Below the pieces are notes generated by a model. That model saw only the letters and a list, made by a program, of their open reading frames with translations. It searched no databases and had not been told where the DNA came from. The translations under genes were made by a program, and so were the position numbers. Positions 1-41,091 of a stretch of DNA of 41,091 nucleotides are shown here, in pieces. The stretch is from Bacillus sp. ISL-55 (GTDB lineage: Bacteria; Bacillota; Bacilli; Bacillales; Cytobacillaceae), in contig NZ_JAGGQU010000018.1 of the NCBI RefSeq assembly GCF_018613155.1, forward strand, positions 183,695 to 224,785, read 5' to 3'. The first letter of the stretch is position 1. Each line of letters starts with the position of its first letter.

Positions 1-71
1 GCAAAAAGCGCTTCTTTGTCGGAGCCTCCAGTTTCTGCGTTTCTGGCCAGTCGGCTATACTTTTCGATTTC
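1..71 (-). repeat. Partial copy of modular palindromic repeat (internal module only)
   Basis: The reverse complement matches the internal module of the long repeat copies at 1781-2019 and 5684-5927, including the GAAGCGCTTTTTGC hairpin arm and the block ending in AGTATAGCC. Similarity stops near position 71, next to the yqgV stop codon. The outer arm that should follow (AAGCGCAAGCGCC type) is absent on this side. The copy is cut by the window edge, so its other end cannot be judged. Confidence 0.75.
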
Positions 72-78
72 CCTTTTC

Positions 79-393
79 CTATTGCTGCAGCAATTCGTTA
101 ACTCTGTTTACCTTATCCTGCATCTTCCTTTTTACATCACGCCTGTCGTCAATCCGGATATTTGTGGCTACCCGCTGGATGCCAGCATTGAACGGTGCTT
201 CGTGAATCGCCTGGATTACCTCAAACAGAACAGGAAGTTCACCTTCTATCAAGGTATTCATCGGTGTAAGTTGATACTGGATTTTGCCTTGTTCTTCATA
301 CTGCTTGAGGATTCTTTGGATATCTGCTACATAGGAACTGACACTTGGTGTCTGTGTTCCGATTGGAATCACTGTTACATCTACAATTGCCAT
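79..393 (-). CDS. yqgV: MTH1187-family thiamine-binding protein YqgV
   Basis: A 104-residue cytosolic protein of the MTH1187/YkoF (former DUF77) family, whose members form ferredoxin-like oligomers that bind thiamine-type ligands. The family pattern is visible: an N-terminal beta strand (AIVDVTVIPIGT), the PSVSSYVADI helix and a second strand ending in NTLIEGELP. The ATG at 393 is chosen over the TTG one codon upstream because AAGGAG lies 8 nt before it. It follows yqgU by 22 bp on the same strand, so the two probably share a transcript. Binding to thiamine is family knowledge and is not shown here. No transporter gene is adjacent. Confidence 0.9.
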   Translation of the reverse strand: MAIVDVTVIPIGTQTPSVSSYVADIQRILKQYEEQGKIQYQLTPMNTLIEGELPVLFEVIQAIHEAPFNAGIQRVATNIRIDDRRDVKRKMQDKVNRVNELLQQ

Positions 394-1780: not shown

Positions 1781-2019
1781 AAGAAAAGCGCAAGCGCCTT
1801 GGTCAGCCCCGACAAGCGCTGGAGGGCCGACCGGAAGTCGTTCTTTGACTTCATTGGGCGGACCGAAATTGGAAAGTATAGCCGACTGTCAAGAAACGCA
1901 GAAACTGGAGACTCCGACAAAGAAGCGCTTTTTGCTTCTGACGGCGGAGTTGAAGTTTCGGAGTTTCTAGGAGGCGACACTAGACAAGCGACTCGAGGGG
2001 CTAGGCGCTGGAGCTGGAC
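1781..2019 (+). repeat. Long copy of modular palindromic repeat
   Basis: A 239-bp non-coding element between yqgU and yqgS. It starts AAGAAAAGCGCAAGCGCC and ends TCGAGGGGCTAGGCGCTGG. The two ends are imperfect inverted repeats (AGCGCCT..AGCCCC against GGGGCTAGGCGCT). A central module of about 120 bp (from ATTGGAAAGTATAGCC to CTAGACAA) is missing from the short copies. Reading frames through it are not genes, because the same peptide appears in every copy. Confidence 0.85.
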
Positions 2020-2054
2020 AATTCTCGAAGAAATATATACATTCTTATGTTTGA

Positions 2055-2103
2055 ACAAAAAGCGCAAGTGCCTCGTTCAGCTCCGACAAGCGCTGGAGGG
2101 ACG
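2055..2103 (+). repeat. Left-end fragment of the modular palindromic repeat
   Basis: Contains only the first 49 bp of the element (GAACAAAAAGCGCAAGTGCC through GCGCTGGAGG), 35 bp after the long copy. It is either a truncated second insertion or the remnant of a tandem arrangement. Confidence 0.7.
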
Positions 2104-2124
2104 CAATTTCCTTAATAATTATAA

Positions 2125-5683: not shown

Positions 5684-5962
5684 AAGAACAAAAAGCGCAA
5701 GCGCCTCGTTCAGCCCCGACAAGCGCTGGAGAGCCGCCCAATGAAGTCGTTCTTTTACTTCAATGGGCGGATCGAAATCGGAAAGTATAGCCGACTGTCC
5801 AGAAACGCAGAAACTGGAGACTCCGACAAAGAAGCGCTTTTTGCTTCTGCCGGCGGAGTTGAAGTTTCGGAGTTTCTAGGAGGCGGCACTAGACAAGCGA
5901 CTCGAGGGGCTAGGCGCTGAAGCTGGATTAAGAAAACTACATGCAGTTATCCACACCTAAAT
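5684..5962 (+). repeat. Long copy of modular palindromic repeat with subfamily-A right flank
   Basis: The core at 5684-5927 (244 bp) contains both outer arms and the roughly 120-bp internal module. The following 35 bp (TTAAGAAAACTACATGCAG, then TTATCCACACCTAAAT) are identical to those after the copy at 40932. The repeat unit therefore extends past its inverted-repeat core. It lies in the 499-bp gap between yqgQ and the spoVAF-like gene. No gene was found in that gap. Confidence 0.85.
5947..5955 (+). other. Perfect DnaA box carried by the repeat flank
   Basis: TTATCCACA matches the DnaA-box consensus exactly. It is conserved at the same place in the copy at 41076-41084. A single box does not imply an origin. 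Confidence 0.5.
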
Positions 5963-5986
5963 AATTTTATAATTTCCTTAACTATA

Positions 5987-17125: not shown

Positions 17126-17286
17126 TAAGAAAAGCGCAAGCGCCTTGGTCAGCCCCGACAAGCGTTGGAGGGCCGACTGGTGAAGTCGCTCTTTGACTTC
17201 ATCGGGCGGACCGAAACATCTCGAGGGGCTAGGCGCTGGAGCTAGACACTTATCTAAGGGGATAAATTTCACTTTCTTATCCAGGA
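17126..17286 (+). repeat. Short copy of modular palindromic repeat with subfamily-B right flank
   Basis: The core at 17126-17247 (122 bp) has both outer arms joined directly, without the 120-bp internal module. The following segment of about 39 bp (ACTTATCTAAG..ACTTTCTTATCCAG) resembles that after the copy at 28029 and differs from subfamily A. Confidence 0.85.
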
Positions 17287-28028: not shown

Positions 28029-28187
28029 TAAGAAAAGCGCAAGCGCCTTGTTCAGCCCCGACAAGCGTTGGAGGGCCTGACAGTGAAGTCGCTCTATGAC
28101 TTCATTGGCAGGGCCGAAACGTCTCGAGGGGCTAGGCGCTGGAGCTAGACACTAATCTAAGTGAAAAATTTATACTTTCTTATACAG
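28029..28187 (+). repeat. Short copy of modular palindromic repeat with subfamily-B right flank
   Basis: The core at 28029-28150 (122 bp) lacks the internal module. The inner arms covary: GGCCTGACAGTGAAGTC on the left still pairs with GACTTCATTGGCAGGGCC on the right, although both differ from other copies. The right flank (ACTAATCTAAG..ACTTTCTTATACAG) is similar to that of the 17126 copy. It lies between yqgC and the Na/Pi transporter gene. Confidence 0.85.
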
Positions 28188-32684: not shown

Positions 32685-33242
32685 TTAGAAGAACGGCAAT
32701 ATAAAGATGCCGACTAGAATGGAGATTGTCCCTATCCCAATTGCCCAGCTTCCGATAGCGGATCCTCTTCTGCGAGCCATGAAGCCAAGGACAATCCCCG
32801 CAGCTCCGAAAAGAACAGGTAAAATAAACAGCGACAAGATCGATAGGGCAAGAGCTGATAGAGCTAGCCCTCGTCCTCCAGTTGTACTTTCTTCTTCTGA
32901 CCTTCTTGTAAGTGCAGGTGGTGCAGGAGCAGCAATCTCCGCCGCAGTTTCTTCCTGGTACTGTTTTTCCTTACGTACAGGTCGGGCGATTGCAGTCATC
33001 TCCTGGTAGTGTTCATCACGCCCAGGTCCCGCGATTGCAGTCATTTCCTGATAGTGATCCTCACCTTCAGGTCCCGCGATTGCAGTCATTTCCTGGTAGT
33101 GCTCATCACGTGCCGGAGAGTACAGTTCAGTTGCTGTTTCTTCCTGGTATATTTCATCACGTGCATCCCTGATCGTAATGACATCCTGCTTAGGTTCAGT
33201 GATATATTCGGTACCTCTCTGTTTTCGCTCTTGGTCTGCCAC
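32685..33242 (-). CDS. yqfX: YqfX-like membrane protein with tandem peptide repeats
   Basis: A 185-residue protein. The first 115 residues are polar and contain five tandem repeats with core YQE(M/E)TA, spaced 15-17 residues apart. The C-terminus (about 125-185) has two membrane helices separated by a basic loop (GFMARRRGSAIGSWAIG), resembling DUF4190-type domains. The GTG at 33242 follows GAGGG by about 6 nt and gives MADQERK. The ATG at 33272 has no ribosome site. It is at the yqfX position next to ispG. The function is unknown. The repeats are described separately. Confidence 0.8.
   Translation of the reverse strand: MADQERKQRGTEYITEPKQDVITIRDARDEIYQEETATELYSPARDEHYQEMTAIAGPEGEDHYQEMTAIAGPGRDEHYQEMTAIARPVRKEKQYQEETAAEIAAPAPPALTRRSEEESTTGGRGLALSALALSILSLFILPVLFGAAGIVLGFMARRRGSAIGSWAIGIGTISILVGIFILPFF
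32953..33150 (-). repeat. Tandem roughly 45-bp coding repeats in yqfX
   Basis: The minus-strand codons for Tyr-Gln-Glu recur at plus-strand positions 32953, 33001, 33046, 33091 and 33142, that is, spacings of 48, 45, 45 and 51 bp. The three central copies are nearly identical (encoding YQEMTAIAGP or YQEMTAIARP). The outer two have diverged to YQEETA. Confidence 0.9.
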
Positions 33243-33400
33243 TTTAATCCCTCGCTTTCTTAAGTGGAGCATTTATTATTGTTTACGAGTAGTGAGGTTT
33301 TCATCATGGCAATGTTTGACTAACTTGAGAAAGTAAATCTTTTGCGAGCCTTCCATATTTGGTAAGATTAAAGAAAGATCAATGTTTAAGGAGCAGATTG

Positions 33401-36496: not shown

Positions 36497-36664
36497 GTGT
36501 CCGTCATGACCTTTATGACGGACACTTTTTCCTCGTTTCCGGCCTTTTCTGTCCGTCATGGCTCTTATGAAGGACACTTTTTTCTTTTTCCCAGCCATTT
36601 TTGTCCGTCATGACCCTTATGACGGACATTTTTTCCTCGTTTCCGGCCATTTCTGTCCGTCATG
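36497..36664 (+). repeat. Tandem 52-bp hairpin repeat array
   Basis: Units start at 36498, 36550, 36602 and 36654, with an exact 52-bp period. There are three full units and an 11-bp partial fourth. Each full unit has a stem TGTCCGTCAT/ATGACGGACA around a 7-nt loop, then a T run and a TTTCC(G/C)GCC spacer. Unit 1 extends the stem to GTGTCCGTCAT/ATGACGGACAC. Unit 2 has one stem mismatch (ATGAAGGACA). The T runs after each stem make them look like three serial terminators for yqfT. Confidence 0.92.
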
Positions 36665-39980: not shown

Positions 39981-40934
39981 ATGAATGTAATTAAAATTTC
40001 ACCGCGCGGTTATTGCTATGGTGTTGTCGATGCCATGGTTATTGCACGCAATGCTGCACTGGATAAAAGCTTGCCGCGTCCTATATATATACTTGGTATG
40101 ATTGTCCATAATAAGCATGTCACGGATGCATTTGAAGAGGAAGGCATCATTACTTTGGACGGAAACAACCGCAAGGAAATCCTTGAAAAGGTTGAAGGCG
40201 GTACAGTTATTTTCACAGCACATGGCATTTCCCCCGAAGTCAGGGAGCTTGCCAAGCAAAAAGGTCTAGTTTCGATTGACGCGACATGTCCGGATGTGAC
40301 AAACACCCATAACCTGATCAGGGAAAAAGAAAAAGAAGGTTTTGAGGTTATTTACATCGGCAAAAAAGGGCATCCCGAACCTGAGGGAGCGGTAGGTGTC
40401 GCCCCAGGAATTGTTCACCTAGTTGAAACAGCAGTGGATGTAGAGGCTTTGAATCTGCAAGCTGAAAAATTAATCGTAACCAACCAGACAACGATGAGCC
40501 AGTGGGACGTTGCCGACATCATGAAAAACGTCAAGGAAAAGTACCCCCACGCAGAAGTTCATAGAGAAATTTGCATGGCTACACAAGTCCGTCAAGAGGC
40601 TGTAGCGGAGCAGGCTAAGGAAGCAGATGTGCTAATTGTAGTTGGTGACCCTAAGAGCAATAACTCAAACCGACTAGCACAGGTATCCGAAGAAATAGCC
40701 GGAACAAAAGCATATCGAATTGCCGATATTACCGAACTTGATATTGATTGGATAAAAGATGCGGACACAGTGGCAGTCACATCTGGAGCATCGACTCCAA
40801 CACCAATCACAAAAGAGGTCATTACCTTCCTCGAACAGTTTGACAAGGAAAACGAGGACACATGGGCAAAAGAGAAAAAAGTACCTCTTCATAAAATCCT
40901 GCCAAAGGTTAAGAAGACTGAGGCAAACGTATAA
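39981..40934 (+). CDS. ispH: 4-hydroxy-3-methylbut-2-enyl diphosphate reductase, IspH
   Basis: A 317-residue iron-sulfur enzyme, the last step of the MEP pathway, reducing HMBPP to IPP and DMAPP. Cluster ligands are Cys12 in PRGYCYG, Cys103 in ATCPDVT and Cys198 in EICMATQ. The catalytic HPEPEG segment contains Glu133, and substrate-binding SNNSNRL and SGASTP motifs follow. TAGGAGG precedes the ATG by 7 nt. It is monocistronic. A repeat element begins at its stop codon. With IspG at 31523, both cluster-dependent MEP enzymes are in this window. Confidence 0.97.
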
Positions 40935-41091
40935 GAACAAAAAGCGCAAGCGCCTCGTTCAGCCCCGACAAGCGCTGGAGAGCCGCCCAATGAAGTCGTT
41001 CTTTGACTTCAATGGGCGGCTCGAAGCGACTCGAGGGGCTAGGCGCTGGAGCTGGATTAAGAAAACTACATGCAGTTATCCACACCTAAAT
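40932..41091 (+). repeat. Short copy of modular palindromic repeat with subfamily-A right flank
   Basis: The core at 40932-41056 (125 bp) has no internal module and begins at the ispH TAA stop. The inner arms GCCGCCCAATGAAGTC and GACTTCAATGGGCGGC pair perfectly. The right flank to the window end is identical to that at 5928-5962, including the DnaA box at 41076-41084. Confidence 0.88.
41076..41084 (+). other. Perfect DnaA box carried by the repeat flank
   Basis: TTATCCACA in the subfamily-A flank, the same as at 5947-5955. Confidence 0.5.

Follow-up and report, generated by a model that had tools for sequence, protein, structure and literature searches.

BOX and REP are examples of small modular repeats already known from bacteria. 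The BOX element of Streptococcus pneumoniae (boxA-boxB-boxC) appears, in the available part of its description, as an intergenic, gene-less and modular repeat in which a fixed frame holds optional inner modules and RNA folding is predicted to be strong; target duplications are reported there, and the element is nearly confined to pneumococcus and its close relatives (PMC3049150). REP hairpins, in the accessible portion of the source, are short, carry a GT[AG]G foot and have an adjoining transposase gene (PMC6006769). Two structured families are described in part of a further source, namely Bcr1, with a length of 167 nt and 31 copies, and Bhal-1 of B. halodurans, with a length of 74 nt and 36 copies (PMC2267715).

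The locus studied here is a 41,091-nucleotide stretch of Bacillus sp. ISL-55 (the window), which forms the end of contig C10 (224785 bases) of a 4.5-Mb Mesobacillus draft genome of 69 contigs. Like BOX, the hairpin repeat found in this window has modules at fixed places in one frame (lengths 112 to 355–359 nt). Unlike BOX, it spans many genera, nests its own frame, follows the direction of replication and lacks a consistent duplication (11 sites, with poly-A blurring some junctions). Its intergenic hairpins, occurring in many copies either alone or clustered, resemble those of REP, BIME and REPIN sequences, but it differs from REP with RAYT (TnpA-REP) in that the unit is 112 to 120 nt long, is repeated in tandem in one direction, has no GT[AG]G foot at its 5′ end and does not flank Y1 genes (one match in 30 loci and none in 20 longer stretches). 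With the stem-loop families bcr1 (Bacillus cereus group) and Bhal-1 it shares, by description only, the character of a structured intergenic Bacillus repeat. Group IIC introns insert beside terminator hairpins, and the repeat is like them in its proposed terminator-side insertion, whereas it gave no Rfam intron match (window at gathering scores; the element at position 5684 at E values up to 5). In its working, the family is most like BOX (modular frame) and REP (clustered intergenic hairpins), while failing a tested feature of each. What is unusual here is the joint occurrence of covariation, one-sided terminators and replication-linked orientation.

Element forms and distribution

In the draft genome, the 5′ arm of the unit has 170 matches and the 3′ arm 129, and reversed control patterns have none, in each case with three mismatches allowed. 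The repeat family is real and larger than was seen in the first-pass annotation, which had described short copies, long copies holding an insert, a reversed copy (1–71) and a 5′ fragment (2055), all of them present. The short copies are confirmed at 17126, 28029 and 40932 and have covariance-model E values of 6e-36 to 7e-34, obtained with a model that includes no window copy among its rows but does include close rows from other loci of the same genome. The long copies at 1781 and 5684 have the outer arms of the short copies and, at one fixed position, an additional module of about 120 bp. All five elements lie on the plus strand, and their boundaries are listed in Table 1.

Table 1. Repeat elements and derivatives located in the window
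Feature	Positions	Strand	Remarks
Deletion derivative: module B lacking the 5′ arm and hairpin A	1..80	-	Continues left of the window; read with the left neighbour in L369
Composite element: GAA start at 1783, shell including module B 1786–2015, tail 2016 to ~2052	1783..2052	+	L113 and L114 have an empty orthologous site
Second element, immediately following the 1783 element and internally deleted to 5′ arm and tail end	2053..2121	+	Missing, like the 1783 element, at the site that is empty in L113 and L114
Composite element: GAACAAA start 5686–5692, shell with module B 5693–5924, type-a tail 5925–5982	5686..5982	+	Site empty in L114
Module B, read as a much-changed nested shell	5775..5895	+	Alignment to nested shell C, z 8.6; to plain shell, z 4.3, under best shuffle
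Short element (shell 17132–17243) and tail, directly behind same-strand ORF ending 17124	17129..17284	+	Site empty in L233 and L242
Short element (shell 28035–28146) and tail, then A-run and terminator-like hairpin	28032..28187	+	Site empty in L244, L245 and L247
Short element (shell 40942–41053) and type-a tail, cut by window/contig end; directly behind same-strand ORF ending 40934	40935..41091	+	

From 81 sources (the window and 80 fetched loci, picked from listed places and hence biased to good matches), we cut 79 elements with both arms and 24 unpaired arms (18 from the 5′ side and 6 from the 3′ side, some at contig ends). Element lengths cluster at 112 (n = 38), 166–167 (n = 4), 230–232 (n = 10), 287–289 (n = 7) and 355–359 nt (n = 2); several other lengths include assembly gaps. 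The shell reads AAGCGCAAGCGCCT..CAGCCCCGACAAGCGCT, hairpin A, CGAAGCGACTCGAGGGGCTAGGCGCTGGAGCT, and it has fixed insertion places, with a 55-nt module behind GACAAGCGCT and the 121-nt module B behind hairpin A. Module C, a second shell that has diverged, stands in place of module B or after it. Module C aligns to the shell with a score of 107 (shuffled mean 15.1) and reads plainly as a shell. Module B has both ends in common with module C (score 34, shuffled mean 14.9) and scores 24 against the plain shell, where the best shuffle reaches 26, and we read it with moderate confidence as a much-changed nested shell. Although the unit was initially taken to be about 122 bp in all, the mobile unit is longer, with a 3′ tail of about 40–58 nt that comes in two main kinds, each tending to pair with a different 5′ start. 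The type-a tails at 5925–5982 and 41054–41091 contain TTATCCACA, which equals the DnaA-box consensus; it is exact in 21 of 35 type-a-like tails of the draft genome, and the adjoining bases vary.

The unit occurs singly, in tandem arrays, or carrying the 55-nt module, module B or a nested shell copy. Tandem units are common in other genera, where a locus holds up to seven, mostly at a spacing of 124–127 bp (one at 115 and one at 121), and the tandem period in Mesobacillus is about 122. Arrays of other kinds were also seen. An intergenic hairpin array of a different kind, at positions 36498–36664, consists of three 52-bp units in tandem whose inner palindrome reads TGTCCGTCATGAC..GACGGACA; GTACCCTTAT-type hairpins form arrays at two further loci, L115 and L244. 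A 45-bp repeat present three times at 32968–33110 lies inside a minus-strand ORF (32685–33272) and is likely a protein repeat.

The initial reading also held that shell and insert were separable and that the insert existed alone. Module-core matches instead lie nearly always inside a shell. Among the 30 that were fetched out of 36 in the genome, the 3′ shell arm follows at +65 (or at +154/+158 with a second nested unit between) in 28, and the other two run into a contig end. The 5′ arm lies upstream in 23 (21 at 136–138 or 193–195, one at 31 and one at 124); in the remaining seven, six are cut by a contig end and one (L353) has no 5′ arm. Module B as an independent mobile insert was ruled out by these flanking arms. 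From the left-edge copy, both the 5′ arm and hairpin A have been lost; locus L369, where it was read together with its left neighbour, has an assembly gap inside the module. In Bacillus sp. ISL-37 (L113), a full composite with a trailing half-unit occupies this site. The fragment at 2055 is present, and is corrected to an internally deleted second unit. The insert-alone and 49-bp copies are deletion derivatives. Of the proposed modularity, growth by nesting and by optional hairpins in one shell stands, and separate movement of shell and insert does not.

Matches to the DNA query were found in 75 of 101 genomes, own genome included. With the covariance model, 218 of 299 genomes and 83 of 116 genera of the order sample have matches, as do 39 of 299 genomes of the class sample, divided into 19 in the order, 19 in one other family and a single weak match elsewhere; both samples include the own genus. 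Neither the 50,697 phage records nor the 72,556 plasmid records searched with one query gave a match, after which phage or plasmid carriage was set aside, and viral contigs gave one exact 24-mer match. No Pfam family matches the three ORFs overlapping long elements, by which an encoded protein was ruled out; this agrees with the earlier expectation that movement would need a factor acting in trans. Rfam has no match over the whole window at gathering scores, and its best sub-threshold match at the 5684 element reaches E 0.09 (25.4 of 49 bits). A literature search, mostly without subscription journals, found no name for the repeat family, and the exact arm strings led only to unrelated papers.

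A folded shape under selection

The covariation of base-pairs indicates what is maintained among the copies. In a first alignment (A1, 18 rows), 29 of the 37 consensus pairs have a kept change on both sides. In a second set (A2), comprising 53 distinct copies (55 matches in other genomes, at 27 loci, whose cores are found in none of the A1 model rows), 33 of the 37 pairs have double changes, 93.4% of cells pair as compared with at most 43.5% when the alignment is slid, and the covariation score is 0.685 versus 0.191 shuffled and at most 0.134 slid. The A2 alignment was fitted to the model, which favours structure; the controls are nonetheless far off. The folded shape is under selection, as the first-pass annotation had suspected from inner-stem differences between the copies at 40932 and 28029. 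Those differences were quoted correctly, and the helix concerned has many double changes. The search of the whole genome and of relatives likewise yielded copies that covary strongly and do not come from one recent duplication.

Imperfect pairs read on the element strand are G-U in 149 cases and A-C in 10 (64 copies), and in A2 the counts are 145 versus 17, or 97 versus 17 without the loop-closing pair. This asymmetry points to the element (plus) strand as the one that probably folds. The assignment rests on the G-U counts and not on fold z-scores, which for the short window copies are −3.57, −5.57 and −7.17, with −3.33, −5.35 and −8.76 for the opposite strands. That the opposite strand also folds well speaks against a one-strand argument. 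G-T pairs are tolerated in single-stranded DNA too, and the RNA nature of the folded strand is putative. The loops contain conserved unpaired segments, GACAAG and CUCGA, and the conserved 5′ end of the unit is GAAAAGCG, where neither GTAG nor GTGG is present.

Insertion sites, terminators and orientation

By glucokinase, the nearest named relatives are Bacillus sp. ISL-37, Mesobacillus selenatarsenatis SF-1 and M. boroniphilus JCM 21738 (98%). Two records labelled Chryseobacterium sp. ISL-80 (L117) and Pseudomonas sp. ISL-84 (L133) have 93% and 78% identity to the window glucokinase and look mislabelled. At 11 sites, an element present in one genome is missing from relatives. These include the window elements 1781, 5684, 17126 and 28029, and site 32621, which is occupied in two relatives (L250 and L228) and empty in the window and in L232. 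The further six correspond to flanks 0, 1, 2, 12, 15 and 18 of the draft genome, with the junction of flank 0 ambiguous. Because of these empty sites in near relatives, the conclusion that the family has moved recently is supported, in agreement with the mobility suggested at the outset.

The flanks came from a search of 20 full joined flanks (0–19) against three relatives (number 20 had one letter in the query) and a local check of 21 flanks against only the 30 loci returned. Ten flanks gave a pairing, comprising the six empty sites, two collapsed half-units in relatives (10 and 13) and two less clean cases (9 and 11); for the 11 of 21 without a pairing, occupancy in relatives does not follow. 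Two pairs of genomes (G349 and G006; G351 and G004) gave identical places and were each counted as one genome. The 2055 fragment and the left-edge copy are of a like kind to the two collapsed half-units. In relatives, two sites that hold a hairpin element in the window, those of the 5684 element (L113, 5094–5591) and of the 17126 element (L230), carry a second interspersed repeat with CCGCGGAAAGCGAAGCGCCTGGA, which matches 14 of 389 sources with up to three mismatches.

Target-site duplications, whose presence had been raised in the initial reading, were looked for at the empty sites and not consistently found; poly-A blurs some of the 11 junctions, one is ambiguous, and that of 28029 is readable with a 3-bp duplication. 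The right junction shifts by a few nucleotides between sites. At the polymorphic sites, most left flanks have AA as their last two bases. The preference is weaker over all copies, where position −1 is A in 54% for one type (24 copies) and in 78% for the other (37 copies).

Terminator-like hairpins lie on the right of the elements. An A-run with a perfect hairpin follows 23 of 70 elements of the draft genome, the mirror form precedes none of the 70, and shuffles give 0.15 (nine of 79 elements were dropped for short flanks). Under a looser rule, applied without a left control, the right-hand count is 32 of 79. Outside Mesobacillus, four of 28 arrays in other genera pass the strict test on the right and one on the left (one dropped). 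The terminator asymmetry is well shown only for Mesobacillus and is weak outside it. With ORFs called by a simple rule, the right-hand gene opposes the element in 51 of 66 determined cases of the draft genome, and 14 of 26 same-strand upstream ORFs end at most 14 nt from the shell.

Orientation follows replication. In the two complete genomes that were tallied, copies run along the replication direction in 129 of 144 cases (90/100 in G018 and 39/44 in G009), with the origin placed by dnaA (base 4461496 in G018 and base 16 in G009) and the terminus taken as the opposite point. For G009 and G018, respectively, the bias has p values of 1e-7 and 3e-17 against one half, and of 0.04 and 3e-4 against three quarters, an assumed value for gene orientation. 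In a third genome (G139), all 11 copies agree among the matches listed, if the origin is at the contig start, as was assumed. The bias could also arise via selective loss rather than insertion.

Possible modes of spread

The combination of no consistent duplication, terminators and replication-linked orientation suggests single-strand insertion at replication forks. The family consists of non-autonomous mobile repeats built around the 112–120-nt hairpin unit, with a fold that is selected, probably on one strand. In a tentative reading, somewhat less likely than not, a plus-strand molecule is copied in beside terminators during replication. At forks, the lagging-strand template would receive the insertion immediately behind the hairpin and T-run of a terminator, where an enzyme acting in trans would copy a folded plus-strand molecule, probably RNA, into the target, starting at a 3′ end close to the T-run. 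Recombination or slippage would afterwards lengthen and shorten the arrays, and short repeats inside the unit, such as GCGCTGGAG, could collapse it to half-units. Target-primed reverse transcription usually truncates 5′ ends, and the unpaired arms, 18 with only the 5′ side and six with only the 3′ side (fetched loci, some at contig ends), count against plus-strand copying.

A rather unlikely account, parallel to one proposed for REP elements, is that an IS200/IS605- or RAYT-like Y1 (HUH) transposase moves the hairpins as single-stranded DNA. It fits several of the same observations, namely the hairpin shape, the AA-ending left flanks, the replication-linked orientation and the lack of a consistent duplication. 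A non-autonomous element of the IS200/IS605 type would insert without duplication behind a fixed short target, with its top strand in the lagging-strand template; here no consistent duplication is seen, and the left flanks are AA-rich, not a fixed word. IS608 and ISDra2 use the lagging-strand template, according to the available portion of the source (PMC6006769). Y1_Tnp matches occur in 32 of 41 genomes, but not in G006, G014 or G015, of which G015 nonetheless has 222 3′-arm matches and the other two many first-look candidates. Around the best Y1 match per genome, only one of 30 loci has a model match (about 0.3 kb from an IS200-like gene in L262), and 20 stretches around longer Y1 genes have none; beyond that one locus, no link to Y1 genes was found. 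The flanks of one longer Y1 gene of the draft genome gave no repeat match in 182,840 fetched bases. Furthermore, Y1 action would want the other strand to fold best, whereas the better-pairing strand is the complement of that in the lagging-strand template. This strand relationship, together with Y1 genes that mostly do not lie near elements and are missing from three copy-rich genomes, favours the plus-strand copying model.

It is decidedly improbable that the repeat serves the host as a regulatory or structural element, with copies retained for an action of the folded RNA or DNA at the ends of genes and their spread a by-product of recombination. The conserved unpaired loops, the short distances to upstream ORF ends (14 of 26 at most 14 nt from the shell) and the wide distribution across genomes of the order and class would suit such a role, but sites differ among close relatives, the half-unit collapse, nesting and arrays resemble a replicating sequence, and purifying selection alone may explain the intergenic position. 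Highly doubtful is a classical MITE moved by the DDE transposase of some insertion sequence. The repeat is small, gene-less and multi-copy, and short imperfect inverted ends (TAAGAA..TTCTTA) are readable in one tail type; against this, the 11 sites share no consistent target duplication (28029 is readable with 3 bp, and poly-A blurs some), and a search covering the Y1 family only found no insertion sequence with matching ends.

If plus-strand copying is correct, a further and unlikely extension is that the family would be a bacterial counterpart of SINEs, in which a protein-less structured plus-strand RNA, copied beside terminator T-runs on the lagging-strand template by a trans enzyme, persists and diversifies across many families of Bacilli and nests itself. 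The repeats also have practical weight, in that many contig ends of the draft genome fall in them and gaps lie inside several. The contigs ending in these repeats are C25, C45, C47, C48, C49 and C65, as well as the right end of C10, and several copies have assembly gaps (NN) inside module B, such that these copies may be chimeric. The combination of strong covariation across many genera, no consistent target duplication, one-sided terminators and replication-linked orientation is unusual, and it provides a testable system for the spread of gene-less repeats in Bacilli.
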